Assembly (NCBI GenBank): GCA_021292105.1
Contig: CM037861.1
Span: 53,160,920-53,224,919 of the forward strand
Length of the DNA stretch: 64,000 nt
Reading direction: 5' to 3'
Source of the DNA: Anadara kagoshimensis
Taxonomy: Eukaryota > Mollusca > Bivalvia > Arcoida > Arcidae
The position numbers and the translations under genes are program-made. The stretch's first letter is position 1; each line of letters begins with the position of its first letter. This document shows, piece by piece, positions 29,095 to 57,979 of the stretch. A model generated the notes under the pieces. The model made no database searches. It saw only the letters and a program-made list of their open reading frames with translations, and was not told where the DNA came from.

Positions 29095-29497
29095 TTTTCA
29101 TGGCACTATTCAACATCTTGGTCTCAGTAATAAGTGGTGACGGTCAGACACCCCTGAATGCAAAAGGCTGCGCCCAACGCTGTCGCAATCGTTGACCAGG
29201 TGAGCATCTGCTCAGCCAATGTAAACTGTGTCAATGGCCGGACACCTCTGAATGCATAAGGCTGTGTCCAACACTGTCGCCAACATCTGGTGGCGATGGT
29301 CGGACACCCCTGAATGCATAAGACTGTGTCAAGCCTTATCACCACAATTTGGTGGCGTTGTTTCACATCTAGCCTAATAGGTAGCGATGGTCGGACACCT
29401 CTGAATGCATAAGGCTGTGTCCCACGCTGTCGCCAACATCTGGTGGCGATGGTGAGAGACCCCTGAATGCAAAGACTGTGTCAACCTTATCGCCTAC
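29095..29497. repeat. Internally deleted array unit (403 bp)
   Basis: Second short unit, with its deletion joining close to but not exactly where the first does. Both belong to the left-hand subfamily. Confidence 0.85.
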
Positions 29498-32400
29498 TTT
29501 TCATGGCACTATTCAACATCTTGGTCTCAGTAATAAGTGGTGACGGTCAGACACCCCTGAATGCAAAAGGCTGCGCCCAACGCTGTCGCCAACATCTGGT
29601 GGCGATCGTCGGACACCCCTGAATGCATAAGACTGTGTCAAACCTTGTCACCACTGTGGACACGCCTGAATGCATAAGGTTGTGTCAATTTTTTTCGCCA
29701 CAATTGACACTCCTGAATGCATAAGGCTGTGCCCAAATCTTGTTCCCACTTACAAGCAAACAATGAAGAAACATGACTGCTTCATTCTTTATGAATTCAT
29801 ATGGTTACTTTCTCCAGGTGGGTCCATCTGTTGTCTTCATCTGTGCTGGTCCAGGGTCCATCTGTAGTCCTAATCCATTGGCGTCAGGTCCATCTGTATC
29901 CTCTTGGTGCCACGGGGTCCATCGTCCAGGTTCCTATGTAAAAAGAAAAAGTTAAAATATGTGCATCTAATCTTATTATTAGATTGTTATTACCCAGTAG
30001 TGTAATAAACTTTTTTTAATTAAGGTATGTTCTACAGGACTTTCATCACATTGGATCCTTTTTTCCAATCAACCTCTTAATACAGTCAAACCGGTCTATA
30101 AAGGTCACATAAGGGAACCAGTAAGAGTGGCCTTTATGGGCAGGTGGCCCTTACATACAGGTTCAAACAACATGAATAAAGAACCACTGGGATACAATTA
30201 TACTGCTCTTTAAAAGCAGGTGGCCCTTTTAAAGAGGTGACATTTAAGACAGGTTTGTCTGTATAACATTTCCATTTAGCTAAAGCATGTTGATGTTTTC
30301 TTGCATGTGAAGAGGTCAATAGTTTTCATTCAAACTCACTTGAGATCCTATTAAAGTTCTGTCTAGGAAGAATACAAGGCCAACAGCTAAATTATTCTTC
30401 ATTGTTGCAGAACTGACCAACTTGGCATAAAACTTTACCGAGACAAAACACTACAACAACCAATCAGGTTGTATGGTCCATTAAACTAAATCAATAAGTC
30501 CTTACAGCAAAATAAAAATAGCCTAGCAAACTATTGCAAAGGTAGGTGGATGGATTTGGTTGATGTCACAAAAATAACCATGTTTACAGTATTGCATTTA
30601 TACCTATTCTGGCTATCCAATAAAATGGTTTTTCCTTGGTCGTCTTCTTCATCTTCCTGGTTAATCCTTCAGATCCTGCAGAGCTGGTCATCCACACTGG
30701 CCTACTACTAGAAATCACATGTACAGACATTAATTGCAATTGAAAACATAAATGATTTATCATGATATAAGTGAATGAATCGTTGACCAGGTGAGCATTT
30801 CTGCTCAGCCAATGTAAAAGTGTGGCAATGGCCGGACACCTCTGAATGCATAAGGCTGTGCCCAACACTGTCGCCAACATCTGGTGGCGATGGTCGGACA
30901 CCCCTGAATGCATAAGACTGTGTCAAGCCTTATCACCACAATTTGGTGGCGTTGTTTCACATCTAGCCGTAATAGGTAGCGATGGTCGGACACCTCTGAA
31001 TGCATAAGGCTGTGTCCCACGCTGTCGCCAACATCTGGTGGCGATGGTGAGAGACCCCTGATGCATAAGACTGTGTCAAACCTTATCGCCTAATTTTCAT
31101 GGCACTATTCAACATCTTGGTCTCAGTAATAAGTGGTGACGGTCAGACACCCCTGAATGCATAAGGCTGCGCCCAACGTTATCGCCAACATCTGGTGGCA
31201 ATCGTCGGGCACCCCTGAATGCATAAGACTGTGTCAAACCTTGTCACCACCATGGACACGCCTGAATGCATAAGGATGTGTCAATTTTTTTCGCCACAAT
31301 TGACACCCCTGAATGCATAAGGCTGTGCCCAAATCTTGTTCCCACTTACAAGCAAACAATGAAGAAACATGACTGCTTCATTCTTTATGAATTGATATGG
31401 TTACTTTCTCCAGGTGGGTCCATCTGTTGTCTTCATCTGTGCTGGTCCAGGGTCCATCTGTAGTCCTAATCCATTGGCGTCAGGTCCATCTGTTATCCTC
31501 TTGGTGCCTACGGGGTCCATCGTCCAGGTTCCTATGTAAACAGAAAAAGTTAAACTATGTGCATGTAATCTTATTGTTAGATTGTTATTACACAGTAGTG
31601 TAATAAACTTTTTTTAATTAAGGTATGTTCTACAGGACTTTCATCACATTGGATCCTTTTTTCCAATTAACCTCTAATACAGTCCAACCGGTCTATAAAG
31701 GTCACATAAGGGAACCAGTAAGAGTGGCCTTTATGGGCAGGTGGCCCTTACATACAGGTTCAAACAACATGAATAAAGAACCACTGTGGGATACAATTAT
31801 ACTGCTCTTTAAAAGCAGGTGGCCCTTTTAAAGAGGTGACATTTAAGACAGGTTTGTCTGTATAACATTTCCATTTAGCTAAAGCATGTTGATGTTTTTT
31901 GCATGTGAAGAGGTCAATAGTTTTCATTCAAACTCACTTGAGATCCTATTAAAGTTCTGTCTAGGAAGAATACAAGGCCAACAGCTAAATTATTCTTCAT
32001 TGTTGCAGAACTGACCAACTTGGCATAAAACTTACCGAGACAAAACACTACAAAACCAATCAGGTTGTATGGTCCATTAAACTAAATCAATAAGTCCTTA
32101 CAGCAAAATAAAAATAGCCTAGCAAACTATTGCAAAGGTAGGTGGATGGATTTGGTTGATGTCACAAAAATAACCATGTTTACAGTATTGCATTTATACC
32201 TATTCTGGCTATCCATAAAATGGTTTTTCCTTGGTCGTCTTCTTCATCTTCCTGGTTACATCCTTCAGATCCTGCAGAGCTGGTTATCCACACTGGCCTA
32301 CTACTAGAAATCACATGTACAGACATTAATTGCAATTGAAAACATAAATGATTTATCATGATATAAGTGAATGAATCGTTGACCAGGTGAGCATTTCTGC

Positions 32401-35400
32401 TCAGCCAATGTAAAAGTGTGGCAATGGCCGGACACCTCTGAATGCATAAGGCTGTGCCCAACACTGTCGCCAACATCTGGTGGCGATGGTCGGACACCCC
32501 TGAATGCATAAGACTGTGTCAAGCCTTATCACCACAATTTGGTGCGTTGTTTCACATCTAGCCGTAATAGGTAGCGATGGTCGGACACCTCTGAATGCAT
32601 AAGGCTGTGTCCCACGCTGTCGCCAACATCTGGTGGCGATGGTGAGAGACCCCTGAATGCATAAGACTGTCAAACCTTATCGCCTAATTTTCATGGCACT
32701 ATTCAACATCTTGGTCTCAGTAATAAGTGGTGACGGTCAGACACCCCTGAATGCATAAGGCTGCGCCCAACGTTATCGCCAACATCTGGTGGCAATCGTC
32801 GGGCACCCCTGAATGCATAAGACTGTGTCAAACCTTGTCACCACCATGGACACGCCTGAATGCATAAGGATGTGTCAATTTTTTTCGCCACAATTGACAC
32901 CCCTGAATGCATAAGGCTGTGCCCAAATCTTGTTCCCACTTACAAGCAAACAATGAAGAAAACATGACTGCTTCATTCTTTATGAATTGATATGGTTACT
33001 TTCTCCAGGTGGGTCCATCTGTTGTCTTCATCTGTGCTGGTCCAGGGTCCATCTGTAGTCCTAATCCATTGGCGTCAGGTCCATCTGTTATCCTCTTGGT
33101 GCCTACGGGGTCCATCGTCCAGGTTCCTATGTAAACAGAAAAAGTTAAACTATGTGCATGTAATCTTATTGTTAGATTGTTATTACCCAGTAGTGTAATA
33201 AACTTTTTTTAATTAAGGTATGTTCTACAGGACTTTCATCACATTGGATCCTTTTTTCCAATTAACCTCTAATACAGTCAAACCGGTCTATAAAGGTCAC
33301 ATAAGGGAACCAGTAAGAGTGGCCTTTATGGGCAGGTGGCCCTTACATACAGGTTCAAACAACATGAATAAAGAACCACTGTGGATACAATTATACTGCT
33401 CTTTAAAAGCAGGTGGCCCTTTTAAAGAGGTGACATTTAAGACAGGTTTGTCTGTATAACATTTCCATTTAGCTAAAGCATGTTGATGTTTTCTTGCATG
33501 TGAAGAGGTCAATAGTTTTCATTCAAACTCACTTGAGATCCTATTAAAGTTCTGTCTAGGAAGAATACAAGGCCAACAGCTAATTATTTCTTCATTGTTG
33601 CAGAACTGACCAACTTGGCATAAAACTTTACCGAGACAAAACACTACAACAACCAATCAGGTTGTATGGTCCATTAAACTAAATCAATAAGTCCTTACAG
33701 CAAAATAAAAATAGCCTAGCAAACTATTGCAAAGGTAGGTGGATGGATTTGTGTTGATGTCACAAAAATAACCATGTTTACAGTATTGCATTTATACCTA
33801 TTCTGGCTATCCAATAAAATGGTTTTTCCTTGGTCGTCTTCTTCATCTTCCTGGTTACATCCTTCAGATCCTGCAGAGCTGGTCATCCACACTGGCCTAC
33901 TACTAGAAATCACATGTACAGACATTAATTGCAATTGAAAACATAAATGATTTATCATGATATAAGTGAATGAATCGTTGACCAGGTGAGCATTTCTGCT
34001 CAGCCAATGTAAAAGTGTGGCAATGGCCGGACACCTCTGAATGCATAAGGCTGTGCCCAACACTGTCGCCAACATCTGGTGGCGATGGTCGGACACCCCT
34101 GAATGCATAAGACTGTGTCAAGCCTTATCACCACAATTTGGTGGCGTTGTTTCACATCTAGCCGTAATAGGTAGCGATGGTCGGACACCTCTGAATGCAT
34201 AAGGCTGTGTCCCACGCTGTCGCCAACATCTGGTGGCGATGGTGAGAGACCCCTGATGCATAAGACTGTGTCAAACCTTATCGCCTAATTTTCATGGCAC
34301 TATTCAACATCTTGGTCTCAGTAATAAGTGGTGACGGTCAGACACCCCTGAATGCATAAGGCTGCGCCCAACGTTATCGCCAACATCTGGTGGCAATCGT
34401 CGGCACCCCTGAATGCATAAGACTGTGTCAAACCTTGTCACCACCATGGACACGCCTGAATGCATAAGGATGTGTCAATTTTTTTCGCCACAATTGACAC
34501 CCCTGAATGCATAAGGCTGTGCCCAAATCTTGTTCCCACTTACAAGCAAACAATGAAGAAACATGACTGCTTCATTCTTTATGAATTGATATGGTTACTT
34601 TCTCCAGGTGGGTCCATCTGTTGTCTTCATCTGTGCTGGTCCAGGGTCCATCTGTAGTCCTAATCCATTGGCGTCAGGTCCATCTGTTATCCTCTTGGTG
34701 CCTACGGGGTCCATCGTCCAGGTTCCTATGTAAACAGAAAAAGTTAAACTATGTGCATGTAATCTTATTGTTAGATTGTTATTACCCAGTAGTGTAATAA
34801 ACTTTTTTTAATTAAGGTATGTTCTACAGGACTTTCATCACATTGGATCCTTTTTTCCAATTAACCTCTAATACAGTCAAACCGGTCTATAAAGGTCACA
34901 TAAGGGAACCAGTAAGAGTGGCCTTTATGGGCAGGTGGCCCTTACATACAGGTTCAAACAACATGAATAAAGAACCACTGTGGGATACAATTATACTGCT
35001 CTTTAAAAGCAGGTGGCCCTTTTAAAGAGGTGACATTTAAGACAGGTTTGTCTGTATAACATTTCCATTTAGCTAAAGCATGTTGATGTTTTCTTGCATG
35101 TGAAGAGGTCAATAGTTTTCATTCAAACTCACTTGAGATCCTATTAAAGTTCTGTCTAGGAAGAATACAAGGCCAACAGCTAAATTATTCTTCATTGTTG
35201 CAGAACTGACCAACTTGGCATAAAACTTTACCGAGACAAAACACTACAACAACCAATCAGGTTGTATGGTCCATTAAACTAAATCAATAAGTCCTTACAG
35301 CAAAATAAAAATAGCCTAGCAAACTATTGCAAAGGTAGGTGGATGGATTTGGTTGATGTCACAAAAATAACCATGTTTACAGTATTGCATTTATACCTAT

Positions 35401-38400
35401 TCTGGCTATCCAATAAAATGGTTTTTCCTTGGTCGTCTTCTTCATCTTCCTGGTTACATCCTTCAGATCCTGCAGAGCTGGTTATCCACACTGGCCTACT
35501 ACTAGAAATCACATGTACAGACATTAATTGCAATTGAAAACATAAATGATTTATCATGATATAAGTGAATGAATCGTTGACCAGGTGAGCATTTCTGCTC
35601 AGCCAATGTAAAAGTGTGGCAATGGCCGGACACCTCTGAATGCATAAGGCTGTGCCCAACACTGTCGCCAACATCTGGTGGCGATGGTCGGACACCCCTG
35701 AATGCATAAGACTGTGTCAAGCCTTATCACCACAATTTGGTGGCGTTGTTTCACATCTAGCCGTAATAGGTAGCGATGGTCGGACACCTCTGAATGCATA
35801 AGGCTGTGTCCCACGCTGTCGCCAACATCTGGTAGCGATGGTGAGAGACCCCTGAATGCATAAGACTGTGTCAAACCTTATCGCCTAATTTTCATGGCAC
35901 TATTCAACATCTTGGTCTCAGTAATAAGTGGTGACGGTCAGACACCCCTGAATGCATAAGGCTGCGCCCAACGTTATCGCCAACATCTGGTGGCAATCGT
36001 CGGGCACCCCTGAATGCATAAGACTGTGTCAAACCTTGTCACCACCATGGACACGCCTGAATGCATAAGGATGTGTCAATTTTTTCGCCACAATTGACAC
36101 CCCTGAATGCATAAGGCTGTGCCCAAATCTTGTTCCCACTTACAAGCAAACAATGAAGAAACATGACTGCTTCATTCTTTATGAATTGATATGGTTACTT
36201 TCTCCAGGTGGGTCCATCTGTTGTCTTCATCTGTGCTGGTCCAGGGTCCATCTGTAGTCCTAATCCATTGGCGTCAGGTCCATCTGTTATCCTCTTGGTG
36301 CCTACGGGGTCCATCGTCCAGGTTCCTATGTAAACAGAAAAAGTTAAACTATGTGCATGTAATCTTATTGTTAGATTGTTATTACCCAGTAGTGTAATAA
36401 ACTTTTTTTAATTAAGGTATGTTCTACAGGACGTTCATCACATTGGATCCTTTTTTCCAATTAACCTCTAATACAGTCAAACCGGTCTATAAAGGTCACA
36501 TAAGGGAACCAGTAAGAGTGGCCTTTATGGGCAGGTGGCCCTTACATACAGGTTCAAACAACATGAATAAAGAACCACTGTGGGATACAATTATACTGCT
36601 CTTTAAAAGCAGGTGGCCCTTTTAAAGAGGTGACATTTAAGACAGGTTTGTCTGTATAACATTTCCATTTAGCTAAAGCATGTTGATGTTTTCTTGCATG
36701 TGAAGAGGTCAATAGTTTTCATTCAAACTCACTTGAGATCCTATTAAAGTTCTGTCTAGGAAGAATACAAGGCCAACAGCTAAATTATTCTTCATTGTTG
36801 CAGAACTGACCAACTTGGCATAAAACTTTACCGAGACAAAACACTACAACAACCAATCAGGTTGTATGGTCCATTAAACTAAATCAATAAGTCCTTACAG
36901 CAAAATAAAAATAGCCTAGCAAACTATTGCAAAGGTAGGTGGATGGATTTGGTTGATGTCACAAAAATAACCATGTTTACAGTATTGCATTTATACCTAT
37001 TCTGGCTATCCAATAAAATGGTTTTTCCTTGGTCGTCTTCTTCATCTTCCTGGTTACATCCTTCAGATCCTGCAGAGCTGGTTATCCACACTGGCCTACT
37101 ACTAGAAATCACATGTACAGACATTAATTGCAATTGAAAACATAAATGATTTATCATGATATAAGTGAATGAATCGTTGACCAGGTGAGCATTTCTGCTC
37201 AGCCAATGTAAAAGTGTGGCAATGGCCGGACACCTCTGAATGCATAAGGCTGTGCCCAACACTGTCGCCAACATCTGGTGGCGATGGTCGGACACCCCTG
37301 AATGCATAAGACTGTGTCAAGCCTTATCACCACAATTTGGTGGCGTTGTTTCACATCTAGCCGTAATAGGTAGCGATGGTCGGACACCTCTGAATGCATA
37401 AGGCTGTGTCCCACGCTGTCGCCAACATCTGGTGGCGATGGTGAGAGACCCCTGAATGCATAAGACTGTGTCAAACCTTATCGCCTAATTTTCATGGCAC
37501 TATTCAACATCTTGGTCTCAGTAATAAGTGGTGACGGTCAGACACCCCTGAATGCATAAGGCTGCGCCCAACGTTATCGCCAACATCTGGTGGCAATCGT
37601 CGGGCACCCCTGAATGCATAAGACTGTGTCAAACCTTGTCACCACCATGGACACGCCTGAATGCATAAGGATGTGTCAATTTTTTTCGCCACAATTGACA
37701 CCCCTGAATGCATAAGGCTGTGCCCAAATCTTGTTCCCACTTACAAGCAAACAATGAAGAAACATGACTGCTTCATTCTTTATGAATTGATATGGTTACT
37801 TTCTCCAGGTGGGTCCATCTGTTGTCTTCATCTGTGCTGGTCCAGGGTCCATCTGTAGTCCTAATCCATTGGCGTCAGGTCCATCTGTTATCCTCTTGGT
37901 GCCTACGGGGTCCATCGTCCAGGTTCCTATGTAAACAGAAAAAGTTAAACTATGTGCATGTAATCTTATTGTTAGATTGTTATTACCCAGTAGTGTAATA
38001 AACTTTTTTTAATTAAGGTATGTTCTACAGGACTTTCATCACATTGGATCCTTTTTTCCAATTAACCTCTAATACAGTCAAACCGGTCTATAAAGGTCAC
38101 ATAAGGGAACCAGTAAGAGTGGCCTTTATGGGCAGGTGGCCCTTACATACAGGTTCAAACAACATGAATAAAGAACCACTGTGGGATACAATTATACTGC
38201 TCTTTCAAAGCAGGTGGCCCTTTTAAAGAGGTGACATTTAAGACAGTTTGTCTGTATAACATTTCCATTTAGCTAAAGCATGTTGATGTTTTCTTGCATG
38301 TGAAGAGGTCAATAGTTTTCATTCAAACTCACTTGAGATCCTATTAAAGTTCTGTCTAGGAAGAATACAAGGCCAACAGCTAAATTATTCTTCATTGTTG

Positions 38401-39707
38401 CAGAACTGACCAACTTGCATAAAACTTTACCGAGACAAAACACTACAACAACCAATCAGGTTGTATGGTCCATTAAACTAAATCAATAAGTTCTTACAGC
38501 AAAATAAAAATAGCCTAGCAAACTATTGCAAAGGTAGGTGGATGGATTTGGTTGATGTCACAAAAATAACCTGTTTACAGTATTGCATTTATACCTATTC
38601 TGGCTATCCAATAAAATGTTTTTCCTTGGTCGTCTTCTTCATCTTCCTGGTTACATCCTTCAGATCCTGCAGAGCTGGTTATCCACACTGGCCTACTACT
38701 AGAAATCACATGTACAGACATTAATTGCAATTGAAAACATAAATGATTTATCATGATATAAGTGAATGAATCGTTGACCAGGTGAGCATTTCTGCTCAGC
38801 CAATGTAAAAGTGTGGCAATGGCCGGACACCTCTGAATGCATAAGGCTGTGCCCAACACTGTCGCCAACATCTGGTGGCGATGGTCGGACACCCCTGAAT
38901 GCATAAGACTGTGTCAAGCCTTATCACCACAATTTGGTGGCGTTGTTTCACATCTAGCCGTAATAGGTAGCGATGGTCGGACACCTCTGAATGCATAAGG
39001 CTGTGTCCCACGCTGTCGCCAACATCTGGTGGCGATGGTGAGAGACCCCTGAATGCATAAGACTGTGTCAAACCTTATCACCTAATTTTCATGGCACTAT
39101 TCAACATCTTGGTCTCAGTAATAAGTGGTGACGGTCAGACACCCCTAATGCATAAGGCTGCGCCCAACGTTATCGCCAACATCTGGTGGCAATCGTCGGG
39201 CACCCCTGAATGCATAAGACTGTGTCAAACCTTGTCACCACCATGGACACGCCTGAATGCATAAGGTTGTGTCAATTTTTTTCGCCACAATTGACACCCC
39301 TGAATGCATAAGGCTGTGCCCAAATCTTGTTCCCACTTACAAGCAAACAATGAAGAAACATGACTGCTTCATTCTTTATGAATTGATATGGTTACTTTCT
39401 CCAGGTGGGTCCATCTGTTGTCTTCATCTGTGCTGGTCCAGGGTCCATCTGTAGTCCTAATCTATTGGCGTCAGGTCCATCTGTTATCCTCTTGGTGCCC
39501 ACGGGGTCCATCGTCCAGGTTCCTATGTAAAAGAAAAAGTTAAAATATGTTTTTTAGCTTTTTGTCTCTACTGATTTTAGGCTCTTTGGTTACCAAGACC
39601 AACTAGCTATTTCACATTTTTGATCTGTCAAATTTTAAGGTACACTACTGATAAAATTACTGGTACACATTTTTTCATTAAAAATTGTGCCACTAGGAGA
39701 ACAGGAG

Positions 39708-43815: not shown

Positions 43816-44061
43816 TTTGTTGTGTGAAAACAAAATAAAATTGTATTTAATTTCTTGCTACCTGCAATATAAATGTGAAACGATGTTATATAAGCAATTG
43901 CTCATCTCCGGAACCTCAGTATAATCATCCGGCAGTAACGTCGTACCAAAGTGATCCTGGTCCAATTCTGATGGGTTAATGGTTGCTCTTTTCTCCGACG
44001 TATCCCGAAGAGTGGATTATTGATTAATTAAAACACCTGGGCCCAGTTGTTCAAAGAAACC

Positions 44062-44678
44062 AAGAGCTTTAACAGGAAATGTCCATCTGGTAACCAATTA
44101 ATTATCAATTTTATCATTATACATGTACTTGTAAAAGGGCGTCAAAATTTTCCGGGGTACCCCATATCCAGTGGCGGATTAAGCGGGGGACATGGGGGGA
44201 ATACGCCCTCCCCCTTTATGTCGCTAATAATACATATTCTTCAGCTCAGATTGCACCAGAATGCAGGATTTTTGCGCCACTTTTTCAGAATTTTCAGGGG
44301 AGCATGCCCCCAAACCCCTAGAAGGTTCGAGCCTTCGACTCACACATTATACGCCCCCTTTCTAAAATTCTGGATCAGCCTCTGATATCCATCTCAAATG
44401 AGAGGGTTGATTATGGAACTTGTGTCACGGTTATTTCATATAATCTTGTATTTTAAACCTATCAAAACGATGCACAATACATTGAAATGGGTCTAGACAG
44501 GACTTAGTTTTGAAAATTATCCGGGGGAGGCCCCCGGGACCACTACCTTGCAAGGGGTTTAGCACCCCTCTTATACTCTCCCCGCCTCGTGCCTATGGCA
44601 CGAGGTCGTACCTGCGGCACGACATAGACATAGCTTCGGTTTGCCCCCCCCCCTATTTAGAAAACCCTCCTACGCCTA
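44062..44678 (+). mobile_element. Inverted-repeat element (TAGGCGTAGGAG ends), copy 2, left end missing
   Basis: It starts at AAGAGCTTTAACAGGAAATG, equal to an internal position of copy 1 near 9583, and runs to CTCCTACGCCTA at the right end. About 130 bp of the left end, with its terminal repeat, are missing. The left junction follows GGGCCCAGTTGTTCAAAG. It can no longer move as a paired-end substrate. Confidence 0.75.
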
Positions 44679-45628
44679 TGTATGATTAGCAGAAATTTAA
44701 AACATGAATAAAAGCAAAATATCATGATCAAATCGATAGTTCTATTACAATTTTTTAGTTTGATGGGATTTTTATTTATTTTCAACATTTCAACATAAAA
44801 TTTTCAATGTATCTGAAATTACGGAAAATTGAAATTTTGACTAAACAATTGATTAAACTAATCAGGCTTCGAACAACCGACCCCTGGCTTTGCAGTGTGA
44901 TTAAGTACAATCTTGCTTCATTCAAATCAACCTCAGCAAGGTGTAGTTACGCAGGAAGAACGTAATTAATAGTATTACATGAAATCGGGAACATCACCCC
45001 TACAGAACTGGGTTGTTATATTAACATGCGGGATCACAACAATCTCTCTCTCCCTTTTTTATGATGATATGGAACCGTTGACGACATAAATAATTCGGTC
45101 CAACTTGAGAGCTGCATCATGCATGAACATAATGAAAATATTAACTTGAGAATTTAGTACTGATTACTAACGTTCAGGGATTGAGATTAACAGGGGCCAT
45201 GGCCAACAGATATTTGTCTGGGCCCCCAAAATTTTTCGGATCTGTGCTATGTATTGCTATTGCAACTTCTCTTCAAAAGTGAGCTGGGCCCCTAACTCAA
45301 AAATAGTTAAGTTTCATCCCTGACGTTGATGTAGATTTGAATCCTTTGAATTATTTGGTTATCAAACTTATAATCCTATTCCAAATCTACTAAAAAGTGA
45401 TTCCCGTTACGTACATCGCCATACTGGCCTCATTAAGTCACCATACATTAGGCTACAGCGGCAATAATGGATTTAGTAACATGTACTTGTCGTGTAAATT
45501 AAGAAAAATATCTGAAATATGTTAATATTTTAACAGAGCAACACAAATACAATCAGTTTAAAACTAAAACATCACGTACCTTTACCTTTCTTTAAAAAAC
45601 AAGACAAATATTCAAGGTGGTGGCATGT

Positions 45629-47819
45629 TAGTCCGACTAATCAGTCCACTAAACCCCCATTTTAATTTTTTGACTTTTTGGAGGTTTGTGGTCTGACAGC
45701 TTCCATTATTGGATTCTTGAAATTTCTGGCGAAAACGGCAGAAACGAAAACACGCGTCGATAATTTCCATTATTTCCTTACCTCGCTCTTGTTGACAACA
45801 TGGAACACTTTCTAAAACATTATTCTACCGATCCATGCTTAATTTTTAATGAAAATCCATCGATATCGGTAGAAATATCGGTTTTCTGATGTCTCTTCAG
45901 CTCTCTGTCACTTTCACATCGTGAAGACATTACTAATTTGCATTGACCAATCAGATCGCGCGTTGCATTTGGTTGGTGAAACTCGCAGTTCTATCTTTAG
46001 AAAGCACATGGTGATGTTTATTTACATTGGTAATTCGCGTTATTAAAGATGTTTTACATGGTGTTTAATGCATGTACTTACAAAAGGTATTCAAAATATG
46101 TAGACTTTCAAATAGAGTAGTCGCGATCTTCTCTATATATTTTTATATTCTTGACCCCTCTCATTTTTTCTGAACTAGTATCCTAGAAATATTATTCCAG
46201 TAATTTTGGAGAGAAAAAATTAAGCACCTCACTGTATATATGTATATGTTCACGCAAAATACAGTTAAAAATTGAACCCTATGACAAAATTTACAGTGTA
46301 GTCGGGATAAATATGAGAATTAATTTTAATGACCTTGCAGACAAGTACTCTTGTGTTGAACTGTATATATTACAATTGGTTTAAAAACCTTTAATTCTAC
46401 GATCTACAAAATATTGGACAAAACTTGACAGCATTTCAGGAGAACACGCAAGTCCCAGATATGATAGAATATTACCCAATTTGAAAGAAAAAATAATTTA
46501 GATCATAGGCGTAGGAGGGTTTTTAATGGGGGGGGGGGGCAAACCGAAGCTATGTCTATGTCGTGCCGCAGGGACGACCTCGTGCCTATGGAACGAGGCG
46601 GGGAGAGTATGGGTGCTAAACCCCTCGCATATGTGGGAGTCCAGGGGGCTCTCCCGGAAAATTTTCAAAACTAACCCCTGTCTAGACGCATCTTCAATGT
46701 ATTTTGCAGCGTTTTGATAGGTTAAAATACTGTGATATCAAGGCAAGATTAAAAACAATAACCGTATGACACAAGTTCCATAATCAACCCTCTCATTGGA
46801 GATGGATATGGGGCTACCCAGAAAATTTTGCAGCGTTCCGAGTGAGAGACTGATTAAGACAAAATTGTACAAATAACTGCATGACATAATTAAGTCCAAT
46901 GATTAATTTTCAAACGTACGGTACTCAACTCACGACTTCTGGCTACATGGAGATTAAGAAGATTTGGTGCCATATAAATAAACTAATTAACCACACCAAT
47001 CTACATATTTACCTTTGATGTTCATCATTAAATTGGCCATGGGTCTAGCATTGATATAATTCTCGACCCCCCCCCCTTTCCTGGATCCGCCCCTGCCGTT
47101 GGAGGTGCTGTGAGTCATTTCTAAGGGTGAATTTCAAGACGCCCTTTTACTGTTTTACAAGTATAATGATGAAATTGATAATTGATTGGTTACCAGATGG
47201 ACATTTCCTGTTATGATACAAAATGCCACACAATATATTGCGGGGGCCTGAACCCCCCCCCCCCCCCTGCTCCTACGCCTATGTAGATATAAACGAGAAA
47301 AAAAACATGAGAAATCTTCACTGCAATTAGTACACGTCTTCACATGGTATTGATAAAAATAAAATAACTAAAATAATATGTTATACGCGTGAAAACATCA
47401 TTAATAATGCGAATCGTTAATGTAAATAAACATCGCCATGTGCTTTCTAAAGATAGAACTGCGAGTTTCACCATCCAAACGCAACGCGCGATCTGATTGG
47501 TCAATGCAAATTAGTAATGTCTTCACGATGTGAAAGTGACAGAGAGCTGAAGAGACATCAGAAAACTTTGTATTTCTACCGATATCGATGGATTTTAATT
47601 AAAAATTAAGCATGGATCGGTAGAATAATGTTTTAGGAAGTGTTCCATGTTGTCAACAAGAGCGAGGTAAGGAAATAATGGAAATTATCGACGCGTGTTT
47701 TCGTTTCTGCCGTTTTCGCCAGAAATTTCAAGAATTCAATAATGGAAGCTGTCAGACCACAAACCTCCAAAAAGTCAAAAAATTAAAATGGGGGTTTAGT
47801 GGACTGATTAGTCGGACTA
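45629..47819. mobile_element. Mutator-like inverted-repeat element inside the LINE
   Basis: TAGTCCGACTAATCAGTCC opens the element and its exact reverse complement closes it. The two arms (45629 to about 46058, and about 47393 to 47819) match for about 427 bp. GTGGCATGT stands on both sides (45620-45628 and 47820-47828), a 9-bp target-site duplication. Nine-base duplications with long inverted ends are typical of Mutator-like elements, so that class is my inference. There is no transposase inside; the middle holds another nested element. Total 2191 bp. Confidence 0.85.
46506..47281 (-). mobile_element. Inverted-repeat element (TAGGCGTAGGAG ends), copy 3, nested
   Basis: TAGGCGTAGGAG begins at 46506 and CTCCTACGCCTA ends at 47281, total 776 bp, opposite in orientation to copies 1 and 2. 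Flanks TTTAGATCA and TGTAGATAT agree at 6 of 9 positions, so the duplication has decayed or the ends have shifted. It lies in the centre of the Mutator-like element. Confidence 0.78.
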
Positions 47820-47828
47820 GTGGCATGT

Positions 47829-48349
47829 TTGTTATGATTAGAAACAATTTCACAAATATTATCAAAATCTGCGAGAACGTGTTAGATACATTTGTAGTTT
47901 TACAAATTGACAATTCTGCTTCAATTTTGAACGAACATGTTTACATAATTTGTGCTTATTTACCCCCGAATAAATCTTCTTTTTACGGGTATTATGATTG
48001 TGACATATTTTACGAACTCCAAAATTTGTTAGAAAAATATGGTGAAAAGGGTAAAATTGTTGTATTTGGTGATTTAAATAGTCGCACTGCTAGTTTGGAT
48101 GACTTTATTTCAGCTGATGCGGTACATAACTCAGTCGACAAACACGTGTCATGTTTATTTACTTATGCTAATGACATTCCTTTACCTGGTCGCACCAATC
48201 CAGACAAAATTACTAACACATATGGATCGAAGCTTTTAAAATTATGCAAATCAACTGGTATTCGAATATTGAATGGAAGACATCCCAAAAAGATGGACAA
48301 TGACTTTACGTACAACGGCTCGCGTGGATACAGTGTGATTACGTTTTAA
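47829..48349 (+). pseudogene. LINE endonuclease-domain part
   Basis: Continues the LINE frame directly after the target duplication: MIRNNF, VYIICAYLPPNKSSF, KIVVFGDLNSRTASLDDF, RILNGRHPKKMDNDFTYNG. GDLN and AYLPP are the usual endonuclease motifs. The open frame that begins at 47678 starts within the inverted-repeat arm, so its first 47 codons are not LINE. The frame breaks near 48345. Confidence 0.85.
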
Positions 48350-48360
48350 CAACGCCGGAC

Positions 48361-49728
48361 ATGTTTGAATGTATACGCGACTTCATTGTGTCAAATTTCA
48401 ATCAATACAGTGACCACGCCCCAGTGCACGCATGTATCGCTACCCGATTGGATAATCAATACAAACCAGCTAGTGACATTGACATTGACCGCAATCTTTA
48501 TAAACCACGTGTCTCCATGAGATGCAAAGAAGAAAATAATCAGGAATACACGAATTCCTTATTACACCATATTGATGAACTTAATGATTTTATCAATAAA
48601 GCAGATTTTTCTGATCAATATAACACAGACATAAGTGTCAATAACTTTAATGAAATTTTAAAAAGTGCATTTAGACCATATTGTGATATATACAAGCCGA
48701 ATTCAAGGGAACCGGGGTATAAATCTGATACACGTAAACACATGATCACTGATGACAAACCATGGTTTAACAAACATTGCAAAAGTGCACATCACAAATA
48801 CTTACATTCACTCTCGGAATTCAACAAAAATAAAAATTAATCAACTCACGAACAATTACTTAGGGACAAAAGGGAATATAAATTATTGGAAAATAAACTT
48901 AAGCGAACTTACTTGAAACAAGAAGGAAACATGCTATCCAGTCTACGTATACATAATCCGAAAAAGTTTTTCTCTATATTTTCACGACCAAAAATGCGGG
49001 CTAATCAAATTTCATTGGATGAATTCGAAAAACATTTCAGCGACCTTTTCAATAACAACACATCTACAGACCGTAAACATAGTGACCCAGAAATAGATTT
49101 TTTACCAGACTTCGAGGAACTGGATAACCCTATAACACCAGCAGAAATAGAAAAATGTATTAAATCATTAAAGAGGGGGAAAAGCTGTGGGGAAGATGAA
49201 ATTTTAAATGAATTTTTTATTGAATCTAAGTCCATTTTATTACCTTATTTAACTTTTATTTTTAACAATATATTTGATTCTGGTATATTCCCATCAGCAT
49301 GGTCTTCAGTCGTAATCGTACCTATATTTAAAAAAGGTCAACAGAATGATCCTAATAATTATCGGGGTATTAGTCTAATTAGTCATTTTGTAAGCTTTTT
49401 ACTAGTATTCTTAATAATCTGCTAGCATGGGCAGATAATTATGATACACTGACGGATGCACAGTTTGGTTTCCGTCCAGGTTTGGGTACACGTGATGCAA
49501 CTTTTGCACTTCACTCCATCATTACTAATTCATTGTGAAACAAAAATAGGTTGTACTGTTGCTTTATAGATTTTTGTCGTGCATTTGATTCTATTAATAG
49601 ACCATATTTATTTTACAAAATTTCGAAACTTGGTATCAAAGGCAAACTATTATCACTTATAAAATCAATGTATAACAATGTTAAATCTACGGTTTTTATT
49701 CACAACATTTTAGAAACAATATTGGTTT
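48361..49728 (+). pseudogene. LINE: end of endonuclease, linker and first half of reverse transcriptase
   Basis: SDHAPVHA is the last endonuclease motif. A stop near 48838 and a frameshift near 49390 follow. The reverse-transcriptase fingers read PAEIEKCIKSLKRGKSCGED, then WSSVVIVPIFKKGQQNDPNN, and the palm begins with FIDFCRAFDSINRP, the aspartate-bearing first catalytic motif. A stop lies near 49538 and the frame changes again before 49730. Confidence 0.85.
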
Positions 49729-49729
49729 A

Positions 49730-50647
49730 ATGCAAGGGGAGGTAATCTCTCCTATATTATTTTCATTGTATGTTAACGACTTTGAAGTTAATTTTTTTAA
49801 AAACACTGAATGTTGTTATGAACTACAGGATTTGTCCTTATTTTTGTTAATGTATGCAGACGATTTAGTTTTATTTTCCGAATCACAAGAGGGTCTACAA
49901 AACATGTTAAATGCTTTATATAAATATTCTGAAGAATGGGATTTGAAGGTTGATTTAAGTAAAACTAAAATTGTTATATTTCGTAATGGTGGTTATGTTA
50001 AAGAGTATGAAAAATGGTTTTATTGTAATAATGAAATAGAAATTGTTAATCAGTTTAATTATTTGTGTTTTCTTTTGACTTACAATGGTAAATTTCATGT
50101 AACACAACAACAGTTTGCATCACAAGGTAGAAAAGCAATGTATTCTCTTAAGAGTAAAACTAAAGATTTATTTTTAAATACTGAAACCATGTTATCACTA
50201 TTTGACACGTATGTGTCCAGTGTATTACTATATTCTTGTGAAGTTTATGCAATGCATGAAGGGAAATTTTTAGAACAGGTTCATTTAGATTTTTGTAAAA
50301 ATGTTTTAGGTGTGAAAAGTTCGACAACTAATGCTATGATTTATATTGAATTAGGCAGATTACCACTACAAGTTACTAGGAAAATTCGTATGTTTAAATA
50401 TTGGTTTAATCTTCTAAATTCTAAAAATTGTATATTATTAAATTGTTATAATGTTTTACTAAGGTTGGGTTATAAGCACATTTCAAATAGATTTATATGG
50501 ACAAATTTTATAAAGAAGGAGCTTGAGTCGCTTGGTCTTGGCCACATTTGGTATAATCAAAATATAATTAACGTAGATGTTGCTTGTGTGAGATTAGACA
50601 AAGGCTTGAAGATACTTGTAAACAACATTCATAATACTCCATGTTAG
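49730..50647 (+). pseudogene. LINE: reverse-transcriptase palm and C-terminal region
   Basis: Begins MQGEVISPILFSLYVNDFE. The catalytic YADD lies at 49853-49864, within LLMYADDLVLFSESQEGLQN, then YSEEWDLKVDLSKTKIVIF, the template-grip segment. The second half is a typical LINE C-terminal region (TYVSSVLLYSCEVY). Confidence 0.88.
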
Positions 50648-50966
50648 AAACCTCTACAAAGTCTTCAATATATAGATTTTTAACTGACAATTTTACTTTA
50701 CAATATTATTTATGTAAGCCTATTCCAAGTCATTACAAAAAAATCTTGTCTAAATTCAGGTTATTTTCTCATTGTTTATCCATTGAAACAGGTCGTTATA
50801 ATAACAAAAAACGAAATGAAAGATGTTGCATATTTTGTAACGGTGTTATTGAAGATGAATATCACTTTATTTTGGAGTGTAAAACATATACTAATATTAG
50901 AAAACAATTTATTAAACCATACTACTGGGTCAAACCAAGCATGTACAAACTTATACAGTTGCTCGG
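50641..50966 (+). pseudogene. LINE: C-terminal zinc-finger-like part, interrupted by an insertion
   Basis: RCCIFCNGVIEDEYHFILEC has the CxxC...HxxxxC spacing usual at the end of such LINE proteins. Reading stops making sense at 50967, where the foldback element enters after LIQLLG; the same frame resumes at 52851 (KQLCNLAKFLYNALNIRNN) and ends at 52924-52926. Confidence 0.85.
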
Positions 50967-52842
50967 ACGAGGCTAAAGTGAGCCGACAATAACAGCCGAC
51001 AATAACTTTGAGCCGACAATAAAGCCAGCCGACAATAAATAGGGTGCGTTCGGAAATCAGACTTTATGTACATAATAGAAATAACGTTATAAATATAAAA
51101 AAATATCTATATTTCTGGAAATTATACGTTATGATCTCTTAACATAATTATATAGAGTAATAGGTCCTCTATCAGGTATATACAGTCCGGATCCGGCAAA
51201 ATATGTTAGATAGATCCAACCCGTTACTTCAAATAGTCAAGATACAAGAAAATGTTTAGATACGTCTTTTTGAATGTGAATTTCTCGAAATTCTACGTTA
51301 TGATCTCAGCAAATTTGTGTATAGACAGTGTTAAGAGTCCCCTATTAGGTGTATATAGTCCGGTCCTGGCAATAATTGTTAGGGGGATCGAACACGTGAC
51401 TGCAAATTGTCAGAGGTAAAGATAATACATGATATGAACAATGAGATACGGCTTTTTGAATGTGAAATTCTCGAAATTCTACGTTATGATCTCTTAATAA
51501 ATTTGTGTATAGACAGTGTTAAGGGTACTCTATTAGGTGTATATAGACCGGTCCTGGCAATAATTGTTAGGGGGATAGAATCCGAGCTTCCAAATTATCA
51601 GAGGTAGAGATAATACATGATATGAACAATGAAGATACGTCTTTTTGAATGTGAAATTCTCGAAATTCTACGTTATGATCTCTTAGCAAATGTGTGTATA
51701 GACAGTGTTAAGAGTCCCCTATGAGGTGTATATAGTCCGGTCCTGGCAATAATTGTTAGGGTGATCGAACACGTGACTGCAAATTGTCAGAGGTGAAGAT
51801 AACATGAAATGAACAATGAGATACGGCTTTTTGAATGTGAAATTCTCGAAATTCTACGTTATGATCTCTTAGCAAATGTGTGTATAGACAGTGTTAAGAG
51901 TCCCCTATGAGGTGTATATAGACCGGTCCTGGCAATAATTGTTAGGGGGATCGAATCCGAGCTTCCAAATTATCAGAGGTAGAGATAACACATGAAACGA
52001 ACAATGAAGATACGTCTTTTTGAATGTGAATTTCTCGAAATTCTACGTTATGATCTCTTAGCAAATTTGTGTATAGACAGTGTTAAGAGTCCCCTATTAG
52101 GTGTATATAGTCCGATGCCCCTAACAATTATTGCCAGGACCGGACTATATACACCTAATAGGGTACCCTTAACACTGTCTAAAGACAAATTTGCTAAGAG
52201 ATCATAACGTAGAATTTCGAGAATTTCACATTCAAAAAGACGTATCTTCATTGTTCGTTTTATGTGTTATCTCTACCTCTGATAATTTGGAAGCTCGGAT
52301 TCGATCCCCTAACAATTATTGCCAGGACCGGTCTATATACACCTCATAGGGGACTCTTAACACTGTCTATACACAAATTTGCTAAGAGATCATGACGTAG
52401 AATTTCCAGAATTTCACATTCAAAAAGCCGTTTCTTCATTGTTCATTTTATGTATTATCTTCACCTGTGATAACTTGCAGCCCTGGGTTCGACCCCCCCC
52501 CTAACAATTATTGCCAGGATCGGACTATATACACCTAATAGGGTACCCTTAACACTGTCTATACACAAATTTGCTTAGAGATCATAACGTAGAATTTTCA
52601 GAATTTCACATTCAAAAAGCCGTTCTCTACCTCTGACAATTTGCAACCTCAGATTCGATCCTCCTAACAATTATTGCCAGGACCGGACTATATACATCTG
52701 ATAGAAAAAAAAATACATGCACCCATTGGTAATTTATTTTTCTGAATAACAGATCCGAACGCACCCTATTTATTGTCGGCTGGCTTTATTGTCGGCTCAA
52801 AGTTATTGTCGGCTGTTATTGTCGGCTCACTTCAGCCTAGTG
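50967..52842. mobile_element. Foldback element with inverted tandem subrepeats
   Basis: TTGCTCGG stands on both sides (50959-50966 and 52843-52850), an 8-bp duplication. The ends are inverted copies about 85 bp long, each with four AGCCGACAATAA motifs and the block AATAGGGTGCGTTCGG. Inside, a 186-189-bp subrepeat (TGAATGTGAA at 51271, 51457, 51646, 51832 and 52021) runs forward five times, then three to four times in reverse, with the centre near 52114. There is no coding: the 60-70-codon frames are the subrepeats. Length 1876 bp. Class is uncertain; an 8-bp duplication would fit hAT. Confidence 0.85.
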
Positions 52843-53142
52843 TTGCTCGGCATCAACAATGTCAAACAATTATGCAATCTAGCGAAATTTTTATACAATG
52901 CTTTAAATATTAGAAATAATGTTTAACTTTATATCATTATATTTATACTTTATATTTATTATCTCTCCTGGTACTGCTGTTTATTTATGTATACACATAT
53001 ACTGCTCACTGAACATTGTTTATATTATGTAATTATATATATTGTAAATCCAATATACGGAATAAAGAAATTGAATTGAAGTATCAAATAAAAACTAAAC
53101 ACTGCAACGGATAACGGATCGTCCCCATTCCGGAAACGATTT

Positions 53143-53481
53143 TGTTAAGTGAGTGAGTAATGGTGTTTAACGTCCCAGTCAAGAATATGTCACTTATATT
53201 GAGACGTCGCCAGCAATAGGCGAAGGTGCAGACATTTTGCCTGTGCGTTGCGCTGATGGCATTGCAGGGTTCTTTAACGTGTCAAGCCCACCATGACACG
53301 GGACCTCATTTATTTTAAGTTCCCATCCGAAAGAACCGGCCTTTCATTTCGTAATGCCGAGTGCTTGGCGAAAGAACAGTCACTACCCAATTTCAAGTCT
53401 TGGATTAGACCCGGTCGGGGTTTGAATCCACGACCTCCCACTTACGGAGCGAGCACTCTACCAACTGAGCTACCGCAGTGA
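53143..53481 (-). repeat. Full-length tRNA-headed SINE
   Basis: On the minus strand it begins CACTGCGGTAGCTCAGTTGG with an A box, then a B-box-like GATTCAAACC, then a long body (CTTTCGGATGGGAACTTAAA, AAAGAACCCTGCAATGCCAT, GCGCAACGCACAGGC, AATATAAGTGACATATTCTT) and a tail of ACTCACTCAC. The family has at least five other copies here. It resembles widely spread mollusc SINEs. I cannot give its published name with certainty. Confidence 0.8.
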
Positions 53482-53664
53482 TTTTGTAAAGAAAGATTCT
53501 TGTAACACTGAGCTACATAGATCTATCATGCATTTAGGTTCAATAATTGTATGGGTACTTTGAACGAAATCATTATAAATTAGACATAGACTAAGGCAGA
53601 TTTGTGTCTACTAGTACGGCGCCTCTGGAGACTGTTATGTGTTAACCGTTTAATCGCAAAAATT

Positions 53665-53760
53665 GCCTGATTGATTGATTGATTGATTAATTAATTGAAT
53701 GTAGGTTAACGTCCAAATAAAGAATATTTCAATTATATCGAGATGTTACCAGCTCTTTGT
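53665..53760 (-). repeat. SINE fragment with GATT tail
   Basis: GATTGATTGATTGATTAATT tail followed by the SINE tail-side block (AACGTCCAAATAAAGAATAT). Body and head are missing. Confidence 0.6.
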
Positions 53761-53922
53761 GAACTTGACTAAGAACACTAGACAGGGAAGTCATGTAGCA
53801 AAACAAACTGATAGCAGGAACAATTCAAAACGAACGGCAGAGAAGTCAAAATTACAGGTAAATTATATGGCGAAAATGAGCGGAAATAGAGTAAATGTTG
53901 ATATACTTGGGGGATAAGCACA

Positions 53923-54099
53923 CATTGTTTAGTTGATACAGGAGCGACAGTCAGTTGCTTGTCAATGCCCTTGTATAATAAACTATATGACAAACGTCCT
54001 AAGATCACTCCATCAGCAACTAGGATTTATGGGGTAGGTGGAGTAGGTTTACAGGTATGTAGTGAAGTTTTACTACCGGTCAAATTTGAAAAAAACTGA
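53923..54099 (+). pseudogene. LTR-retroelement protease part
   Basis: HCLVDTGATVSCLSMPLYNK contains the aspartic-protease DTGA motif. It continues with IYGVGGVGLQVCSEVLLPVK and ends at a stop at 54097-54099. A frame break precedes it (after LGG), so the start is lost. It stands just upstream of the reverse transcriptase in the order usual for Ty3/gypsy elements. Confidence 0.75.
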
Positions 54100-54270
54100 C
54101 AATTTCTCAGAAATTTTTAGTAGTAAATAATATTGAATATCCAGAAATTTTTGGGTCATGATTTTCTAAGTGAAAAATCTTGCTAATATAGATTAGATGA
54201 GAAATGTAATTTACCAGTCAGCAGTATTGAAAGTAAATCAGGTAAGAGGCAAAATAGCTTAAATTTTGAC

Positions 54271-55440
54271 TTGTCAAATTCATGTCTTTCAAAGAATGAA
54301 AAGGACAAATTATTGAAGTTCCTTAAAGGAAACAGACAAGTTTTCTCAACAGATTTATCTGAGATAGGTCTGACAGATGTATATAAGCATGAAATTGATA
54401 CAGTTGAGAACTCTCCAGTTAGCTATAGTTTGCCTCCGCACAAGGCAGCACCAAAGGTAAGACAAGAAATAGAAAAACAGGTAGAAGAAATGCTAAAAAA
54501 TAATATTATCAGTCCTTCTAACTCTATTTGGCATAGTCCAGTTGTAATGGTAAAGAAAGCAGATGGTAGCTTCTGGTTCGTTTGTGACTTTCGTCTTTTA
54601 AACCAGAAAACAAAACCAATGTCATTCCCATTGCCAAATTTAAATGATGTAATTGACACAATTGGAAAGAGGAAATCTCAATTTTTTTCCACAATTAATT
54701 TATCCCAATCTTTTTGGCAAATCCCTCTCCATGAAAATAGTAAGGTCAAAGCTGCGTTCATAACGCATTCAGGAATTTACGATTGGAACCGTATGCCATA
54801 TGGACTTATAAATAGCAGCATTTCTTTTTCTCAAGTAATTTCACAAGTGGTGAGAGGTTAGAACTGGAAAAATGTGTTATGTTACATAGATGATTTACTG
54901 ATCATGAGCAAGGTTTTCAATGAACATCTTGAGCATTTAGAAGAAGTTTTTGTTAGGTTAAGGACAGCAAATCTAACGCTAAAACCAGAAAAGTGTGATT
55001 TTGGTGTCACAGAAGTGAAATATTTAGGTCACCTAGTATCAAAAGATGGCGTCAAGGTAGATAATTCAAAAATTGAACTTGTCAGAAATTATCCAGTACC
55101 ACGAAATCAGCATGACGTAAGACAAATATTTGGACTATGTAACTATTATAGGAGATTTTGTATGCAAAAAAATGCTCTTCTTCAAAAAAGATAAACCTTA
55201 GTTTGGGATGATAAATGTCAGAAATCTTTTGAGGCTTTGAGAACTGCACTGTTCATACTTACAACTGACGCCTCAGGTTCAGCTATAGGGTACATTTTAG
55301 GTCAGTTAGATGATGAAAGTAAGGAACATGTTATTTTGTATGGTGGGCGTGCACTTAGAAATAATGAGAAAAATTGGACTGTAACTGAATAAGAATGTTT
55401 GGCTGTATTAGAAGGTATAAAATAAGGACGTCCGATTCGT
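54271..55440 (+). pseudogene. Ty3/gypsy-type reverse transcriptase and start of RNase H, degraded
   Basis: One frame is interrupted by stops at 54859, 55192, 55390 and 55423. Motifs in order: PSNSIWHSPVVMVKKADGSF, VCDFRLLNQKT, INLSQSFWQIPL, YDWNRMPYGL, catalytic YIDD at 54883-54894, LKPEKCDFG, VKYLGHLVSKDGVKV, LCNYYRRF, then TTDASGSAIGYILGQ of RNase H. The first catalytic aspartate, usual in the LDLxxGYxQI motif, is asparagine here. About 18 residues are missing between ALRTAL and FILTTDASG. Nothing recognisable follows 55440: no integrase and no LTRs, so this is an internal fragment of a dead element. Confidence 0.88.
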
Positions 55441-55615
55441 GTCATGTGTGAGTCTGACAAAAGAACGTTGTTCTGATCTGTATGTGTTGTTTGATTTTTG
55501 CATCCTCTAAAATATAGTCCTAGTTTTCATACTAAGTATGCTGGTAGCTATATTGTTACAATCGTTAATATGACTTAGAAACAAAATGCAATTGTCTGAA
55601 TGTTATATCATTCGT

Positions 55616-56960
55616 GCTTTAGATGTTGGTCAAATATATGTATTGACACTATGCTTTCGATGTTGGTCAAATACATGCATATATGTACTGACACTATGCT
55701 TTAGATGTCGTTCAAATACATGCATATATGTACTGGCACTATACTTTAGATGTCGTTCAAATACATGCATATATGTACTGGCACTATACTTTAGATGTTG
55801 GTCAAATACATGCATATATATACTGGCACTATACTTTAGATGTTGGTCAAATACATGCATATATGTACTGGCACTATACTTTAGATATTGGTCAAATACA
55901 TGCATATATGTACAGGCACTATACTTTAGATGTTGGTCAAATACATGCATATATGTACTGGCACTATACTTTAGATGTTGGTCAAATACATGCATATATG
56001 TACTGGCACTATACTTTAGATGTTGGTCAAATACATGTGTTGGCACTATGCTTTAGATTTTGGTCTAATACATGTATTGACACTATGTTTTAGATGTTGG
56101 TCAAAAACATGTACTGACACTAAGTTTTAGATGTTGGTCATATAGATGTATTGGCACTATGTTTTAGATGTTTGTCAAATACATGTACTGGCACTATGCT
56201 TTAGATGTTGGTCTAATACATGCATATATGTACTGGCACTATGCTTTAGATGTCGTTGAAATACATGTACTGACACTATGTTTTAGATGTTGTTCAAACA
56301 CATGCATATATGTACTGGCACTATGCTTTAGATGTCGTTCAAATACATGTACTAAAACTATGCTTTAGATGTTGGTCAAATACATGTACTGGCAATATGT
56401 TTTGTTCTGTGTTGGACTGATACATGTACTGGCACGATGCTTTAGATGTTGGTCAAACACATGTATTGACACTATGCTTTAGATGTTGGTCAAATACATG
56501 CATATATGTACTGACACTTTGCTTTAGATGTCGTTCAAAAACATGCATATATGTACTGGCACTATGCTTTAGATGTCGTTCAAATACATGTACTAGCACT
56601 ATGCTTTAGATGTTGGTCAAATACATGTACTGGCACTATACTTTAGATGTTATTCAAATACATGTAGTGGCACTATGCTTTAGATGTTGGTCTAATACAT
56701 GTATATATGTACTGGCACTATGCTTTAGATGTTGGTCAAAGACATTTGTTGATACTATGTTTTTGATGTTGGCCAAATACATGTACTGGCACTATGCTCT
56801 AGATGTTGTTCAAACACATGCATATATGTACTGGCACTATGCTTTAGCTGTCGTTCAAATACATGTACTGGCACTATGCTTTAGATGTTGGTCAAATACA
56901 TGTACTGGCACTATACTTTAGATGTTATTCAAATACATGTAGTGGCACTATGCTTTAGAT
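55616..56960. repeat. Satellite of 45-bp and 37-bp units
   Basis: The unit is ACATGCATATATGTACTGGC, ACTATGCTTTAGATGTTGG, TCAAAT, 45 bp; a shorter form of 37 bp lacks CATATATG. The first part (55660-56030) is nearly all 45-bp units. As 45 is a multiple of three, long open frames repeating 15 residues arise on both strands there. They fall apart where 37-bp units begin, and no promoter or family match supports a protein. Confidence 0.92.
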
Positions 56961-57979
56961 GCAGCTGAACCTCAAACGACGATATAAATACCTAATACAA
57001 ATAAATACTAAAGAACCGTTTCTTCACCATTGATACTATTTTAATTTTAATTTCAATAATTGAAAAAAGCCAATTCGAAATCAGTTTCTTCTCCAAAACT
57101 ATGAAGCACTTTTTCATAAAATTTGGTGCAAAGCATCAACATTAATAGATGTACATATCGTTACTCGAGTTGGTTTGCCCATTTCTTGGTTATTGACCTT
57201 TGAACATAAGTGCAGGCGGGGGATCCTAATCCACTGAATTTACTTGTTTGTATCAGTACTTTTAACGAAGATATACATCTAAACGGAATGTTTTTGTATA
57301 GCGGATAGGGATTCCAGATATGCCTCGACGTTTTTTGTCCTTCGTAAGCTTGGCGATATTGCTCACGTTTTCCTAGATGTGTCGCAGGGAGAGTGAGAAC
57401 TGGCATTCAATGCGTGTGCAAAGAAATGCTAAACTTAAATACATGAACCTAGTGTCGTAAGCCGATAGAAAAACATTTCGTTTTGTTATCAAAATGATTT
57501 ATTGTTGAGTACACACAGAATGGTTTCTGTAGAGCCAGGCTGTTATTTGAAACATAGCTAATAAGATCGATAGAAACTGTCTTCTATATTAGAAGTTCGA
57601 ACACGTATATGTATAAATATTGGGAAACATTATTGTTTTATTGGCTTTCTTAACCTTTTATCGTGCCCTGTGACAAAAGTGGACACGGTAGAACCCGTTT
57701 TCTTCATTAGAAGTAAGTATATGGTATAAATATTGCGAAACATTATTGTTTTATTGGCTTTCTTAACCTTTTATCGTGCCCTGTAACAAAGTGGAACATT
57801 TTGACATTAAGACCAATATGTAAAAGATATGACCACAACGAGTTCGTGCTTAATCGGTACATCAGGGGGACCAGTTCTTAAGATAAGATAGGTCAAGTTC
57901 CAAATCTAACACCACATTTTACTAATTTATTTCGTTTATTTTATCACTATCCGTCTAACGTTAACAATAGAGTAACAAC
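56961..57979. other. Sequence upstream of the secreted-protein exon
   Basis: I recognise nothing in 56961-57600. At 57617-57797 lies a duplicated block: ATTGTTTTATTGGCTTTCTT, then AACCTTTTATCGTGCCCTG, appears twice about 112 bp apart, each time preceded by a TATAAATATTG sequence. The second block ends about 180 bp before the start codon at 57980. It may belong to a promoter, but I see no proof. Confidence 0.45.

Follow-up and report, generated by a model that had tools for sequence, protein, structure and literature searches.

Mutator-like elements (MULEs) are bordered by target duplications of 8-11 bp, and their ends are often hundreds of base pairs long, as stated in the available part of PMC6446971. 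Foldback elements have been placed in the same superfamily. Tetris, a foldback of Drosophila virilis, is associated with duplications of 8-10 bp, according to the accessible section of PMC4079207. For the root-knot nematodes, the foldback family Tm1 is described in the available portion of PMC3169594 as having mostly 9-bp duplications.

The DNA analysed here is a stretch of 64,000 nucleotides, hereafter called the window. The locus of interest very probably consists of a LINE, two separate non-autonomous DNA transposon insertions, and a third element inside the first of these. An earlier note on this DNA had proposed three-layer nesting in a LINE, which is essentially borne out: exact duplications border the elements, and the reading frame lends weaker support. 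The features are as follows.

45568-45628, plus strand: probable remnant of the LINE endonuclease region, left of insert 1, with a 20-codon open run in register with the right side
45629-47819, no strand: insert 1, a putative Mutator-like non-autonomous element of 2191 bp, with inverted ends and a duplication
46504-47283, no strand: inner inverted-repeat element of 780 bp inside insert 1, placed by its ends and duplication
47820-50966, plus strand: LINE body, an endonuclease-like region and a reverse transcriptase, placed by RVT_1, PDB matches and frames
50967-52841, no strand: insert 2, a foldback element of 1875 bp, with outer inverted ends, internal units and a duplication
52842-53080, plus strand: LINE 3' part, with copy 2 of the insert-2 duplication (52842-52850), the last 24 codons to TAA and the 3' untranslated region
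9444-10212, minus strand: family member of the inner element, both ends present, flanked by an exact 5-bp duplication (TATTC, plus strand)
about 44060-44680, minus strand: family member of the inner element, right end missing

Element boundaries, duplications, predicted empty sites and rejoined frames can be read directly from the bases. The locus is a clean worked example, in which the boundaries of three elements and as many predicted empty sites are readable to the base within 7.5 kb, and it is useful for repeat-family curation in a genome that is probably under-annotated. The repeat content gives the impression of a mollusc genome. The locus represents ordinary transposon nesting, its elements probably represent unnamed members of kinds already known, and its structure alters no view of how such elements work.

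Insert 1 has the long inverted ends and the 9-bp duplication of the MULEs, including those of invertebrate clades, as far as the available part of PMC6446971 describes them. This copy, however, is without a transposase, and the likeness is structural only. Insert 2 and Tetris are both non-autonomous foldback elements with no coding capacity, to judge from the accessible section of PMC4079207. In both, the inverted ends are built with tandem repeats, of about 220 bp in Tetris (same section of PMC4079207) and about 188 bp in insert 2, and the 9-bp duplication of insert 2 falls within the Tetris range; the layout of insert 2 thus comes close to that of Tetris. Insert 2 differs in its 88-bp outer domain with four short motifs. 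The two presumably belong to different phyla and were compared by description, not by sequence. Tm1, in the portion of PMC3169594 that is available, combines 9-bp duplications with composite inverted ends and repeats of a motif of ~14 bp; insert 2 resembles it in the length of its duplication and in having composite ends. Some Tm1 elements encode a putative transposase, whereas none was seen in the inserts of the window. The LINE has a reverse transcriptase apparently of the non-LTR type in common with bivalve LINEs of clades such as CR1-Zenon and RTE-X, as presented in the available part of PMC10294476. An endonuclease-like N-terminal region, judged by motifs, also appears to be common to them, but the window copy is frameshifted and has no recognisable 5' part.

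The host LINE and its rejoined frames

The host element is a degenerate LINE that is now dead and is split by the two inserts. Its body starts with copy 2 of the insert-1 duplication (47820-47828) and finishes with copy 1 of the insert-2 duplication (50958-50966). As read from frames and translations, at least four reading-frame changes are needed between 47825 and 50966, and in-frame stops occur at 48838 and 49536; together, these imply a dead copy. The 3' untranslated region contains AATAAA and a short TTGAA-repeat tail, and the 3' boundary (53080) is an estimate made by eye. Around the LINE, there is no convincing direct repeat that could be a target duplication, the longest match being 9 A-rich bases.

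The LINE piece 49685-50644 matches RVT_1 in Pfam (E 5.9e-15), a family that also covers reverse transcriptases other than the non-LTR type. Its best PDB match is 6me0, named maturase reverse transcriptase (E 2.3e-4). The second is 8gh6, 'Reverse transcriptase-like protein' (E 5.6e-4), which we take to be an R2 protein, and further matches are to chains named R2 retrotransposon protein (E 0.0045-0.01). More reverse-transcriptase-like sequence, with one stop, is found at 49383-49727. The LINE appears to encode the non-LTR-type reverse transcriptase expected of an APE-type LINE. Its upstream pieces contain GDLNSR and SDHAPV, presumably APE-endonuclease motifs, and the region thereby resembles an endonuclease at motif level. 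Pfam at E 0.001 gave no match for three of the four LINE pieces. When matches up to E 10 were included, it gave nothing for the two endonuclease-like pieces or the middle piece and two matches for the C-terminal piece, both well below the cut-off. The endonuclease piece had no meaningful match in PDB. In tblastn searches, none of the pattern-matching stretches was confirmed, whether for the reverse transcriptase piece (3 in viral_contigs and 7 in genome_contigs) or for the middle piece (24 in viral_contigs). ARAGORN detected no genes over the window, and Rfam detected no families over 44000-54500.

When insert 1 and one copy of its duplication are left out, the LINE frame at site 1 reads ...KNKTNIQGGGMFVMIRNN...; with insert 2 and one duplication copy removed, the frame at site 2 reads ...YKLIQLLGINNVKQLCNLAKFLYNALNIRNNV, then a stop. 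The return of the LINE frame into register at both sites, noted previously, is thus seen, yet the rejoined runs are short (20 codons at site 1 and 24 at site 2) and are weak evidence alone. Among random stretches taken from the window outside 45400-53200, 0.314 of 51650 are open over 20 codons and 0.251 of 51666 over 24 codons. Frame restoration was rejected as the sole proof of the insertions because chance alone keeps runs so short open in 31% and 25% of random stretches. Stretches that are open and also have an equal or better LINE-like codon score are rarer (0.041 for site 1 and 0.047 for site 2). On the right side of site 2, each of the other two frames is broken by two stops within 26 codons.

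The strong evidence is the exact 9-bp duplication that borders each large insert; the rejoined frame is weaker. Exact matches between random pairs of places in the window number 141 in 2,000,000 for 9 bases and 3050 in 2,000,000 for 5 bases; these figures are inflated by satellites in the window, and draws less than 1000 bases apart or with N count towards the total of 2,000,000, though they were not scored.

The left-hand open run of 20 codons, NITYLYLSLKNKTNIQGGGM, is in register with the right side of insert 1. It is very improbable that the sequence to the left is something other than LINE and that insert 1 landed at the LINE 5' boundary. Such an arrangement would agree with an in-register run of just 20 codons, a length that is open by chance in 31% of stretches, and with a second frame that is open on the left over 23 codons (score 0.170, against 0.217 for the in-register run). 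However, the right copy of the exact 9-bp duplication falls within the LINE frame, which makes at least the insertion site itself LINE, and no more than 4.1% of random stretches equal the left run in codon score. The left side is best regarded as a probable LINE remnant.

Two large inserts with 9-bp duplications

The Mutator-like insert of 2191 bp reported by the earlier note is confirmed, together with its exact 9-bp duplication, GTGGCATGT, at 45620-45628 and 47820-47828. Its inverted ends lie at 45629-46055 and 47392-47819 (427/428 bp); their alignment has 413 identical positions, 13 mismatches and 3 gap letters. The insert opens with TAGTCCGACTAATC and closes with the reverse complement of this sequence. 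It contains no open frames of at least 120 codons. The sole frame of that length overlapping it is the LINE frame, which enters across its right end. This fits the expectation for a non-autonomous copy. The long terminal inverted repeats and a duplication within the range of 8-11 bp are features of the Mutator superfamily, and by its ends and duplication length insert 1 resembles a Mutator-like element, a putative assignment. No second copy was found by blastn in the window beyond stretches of at most 46 bases, and a search for the exact end pattern outside the window yielded 0 stretches.

Insert 2 is flanked by an exact duplication at 50958-50966 and 52842-52850, for which 9 bp, GTTGCTCGG, is the better reading. 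It had been described as a foldback element of 1876 bp with an 8-bp duplication; the foldback and the exactness of the duplication stand, while 9 bp and 1875 bp are preferred. Immediately left of the 8-bp copy stands a G, and the insert as first delimited likewise ends in G, which lengthens the duplication to GTTGCTCGG. Under this reading, the ends of the insert are ACGAGGCT... and ACTAGGCT... and line up symmetrically from their first base onwards. The 8-bp and 9-bp readings predict an identical empty site.

The outer ends of insert 2 are 88 bp long, match at 97.7% (blastn), and contain four GCCGACAATAA motifs each. Between them lie units of ~188 bp, of which a common motif marks six in forward and three in reverse orientation, plus partial ones, mirrored about roughly 52127. 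Six of the units are mutually 83-95% alike, and the outermost left one shows a likeness of 57-63% to the others. The two units beside the centre are 67-80% like the main six and 88% like each other; both were cut across the centre, so that the low figures are partly an artefact. Long inverted repeats containing tandem sub-repeats, here the ~188-bp units between the 88-bp ends, characterise foldback elements, and a duplication of about 9 bp is the length expected of the Foldback/Mutator type. By its ends and duplication length, insert 2 resembles Mutator/foldback elements, and this assignment is putative as well. The foldback holds no open frames of at least 120 codons. No transposase that could fix the superfamily was seen in either insert. 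In the window, blastn found no second foldback copy beyond stretches of at most 46 bases, and the exact foldback end patterns occur in 0 stretches of genome_contigs and viral_contigs.

P/Galileo-like and hAT-like elements leave duplications of 7-8 bp. There is a minor but appreciable chance that the foldback was moved by a transposase of such a non-Mutator family. The 8-bp reading of the duplication is formally possible, and foldback elements outside Mutator exist, as the accessible section of PMC4079207 indicates; the symmetry of the ends from the first base under the 9-bp reading speaks against it. A speculative idea, which we consider doubtful, would make the foldback the equivalent of Tetris in a mollusc, mobilised by Mutator, with ~188-bp units that are amplified in both arms and could seed satellite arrays elsewhere in the genome. 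In the window, blastn detected no such units outside the element.

The preferred explanation remains a LINE copy, now dead, that would have received two separate non-autonomous DNA transposons, each large insert leaving a 9-bp duplication. We infer both the transposase families and the mobilisation in trans: the two large inserts probably owe their movement to Mutator-superfamily transposases provided in this way. A third non-autonomous element, from a family that leaves 5-bp duplications, would have entered insert 1 before or after the latter landed in the LINE.

The inner element and the order of events

The inner inverted-repeat element, previously given as 776 bp, is present but has a length of 780 bp and is flanked by an exact TAGAT duplication at 46499-46503 and 47284-47288. 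Its ends are CATAGGCGTAGGAG at 46504 and CTCCTACGCCTATG at 47270-47283. A 15-base form of the end occurs in 47 viral contigs, with one match each, which by our own estimate is chance level. A literature search with the inner-element end sequence returned no match, and searches with three other end motifs returned none with a transposon title among the matches listed.

Nesting makes two steps secure: the LINE is older than both inserts, and insert 1 had formed by the time the inner element entered it. It does not follow from nesting that insert 1 was in the LINE by then. The earlier order of LINE, two inserts and then inner element therefore holds for its first step, but nesting does not place the inner element last. 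That the inner element was necessarily the last event was rejected, as the Mutator-like element may have carried it on landing. The ends of insert 1 differ at 13/852 arm positions (1.5%) and those of insert 2 at 2/176; the intervals of these values overlap, and either of the two LINE inserts may have come first. Dating three families from this stretch alone, as had been suggested, is not realistic unless more copies and a substitution rate are available; dates of any sort, absolute or relative, would be inferred values.

A special case of the preferred explanation, with a somewhat less than even chance, is that insert 1 already held the 780-bp element when it entered the LINE. Of the 281 columns that the three family members have in common, 12 (4.3%) carry a difference private to the inner copy, a larger share than the 13/852 arm differences (Fisher p 0.016), as would follow if the inner copy predated the outer insertion. 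This comparison assumes that the arms were identical at birth and underwent no later conversion. Moreover, the three copies compared have similar private counts, the two window relatives having 16 and 13 (with one three-way column). The inner copy is unlike both relatives throughout its middle, and the excess may be subfamily divergence that preceded the insertion. The divergence leans towards an older inner element, and pre-insertion divergence accounts for it equally well. Nesting of a similar kind occurs in Tm1, one example of which holds an unrelated nested inverted-repeat element, as described in the available portion of PMC3169594.

Relatives of the inner element

The inner element, an inverted-repeat element nested in the Mutator-like insert that interrupts the LINE, belongs to a family with two additional copies elsewhere in the window, both on the minus strand:

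9444-10212, minus strand: family member with both ends present and an exact 5-bp duplication
about 44060-44680, minus strand: family member without the right end

Sequences near the LINE

The minus strand of 53140-53490, directly downstream of the LINE (a dead retrotransposon copy), looks on visual inspection like a tRNA-derived SINE, in which GGATTCAAACC, also on the minus strand, resembles a box B. ARAGORN, run on the window, returned no tRNA gene. The open frame at 54187-54858 matches the reverse transcriptase model RVT_1 (E 5.7e-13), and its sequence, judged by eye, looks Ty3/gypsy-like.

Tandem arrays and a sequence gap

Two minisatellites and one long array are present in the window:

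11502-13464: minisatellite array in which a 53-bp unit recurs about 33 times
22051-39330: long array with a repeat of ~1.6 kb, the period being judged from row spacing in the repeat listing
55615-56961: minisatellite made up of about 31-33 units, each 37-45 bp long

A run of N, which appears as X in translations, occupies about 19740-20740. The 53-bp array contains a 124-codon open frame (12446-12820), and sub-repeats of 47, 62 and ~156 bp lie inside the ~1.6-kb units of the long array.
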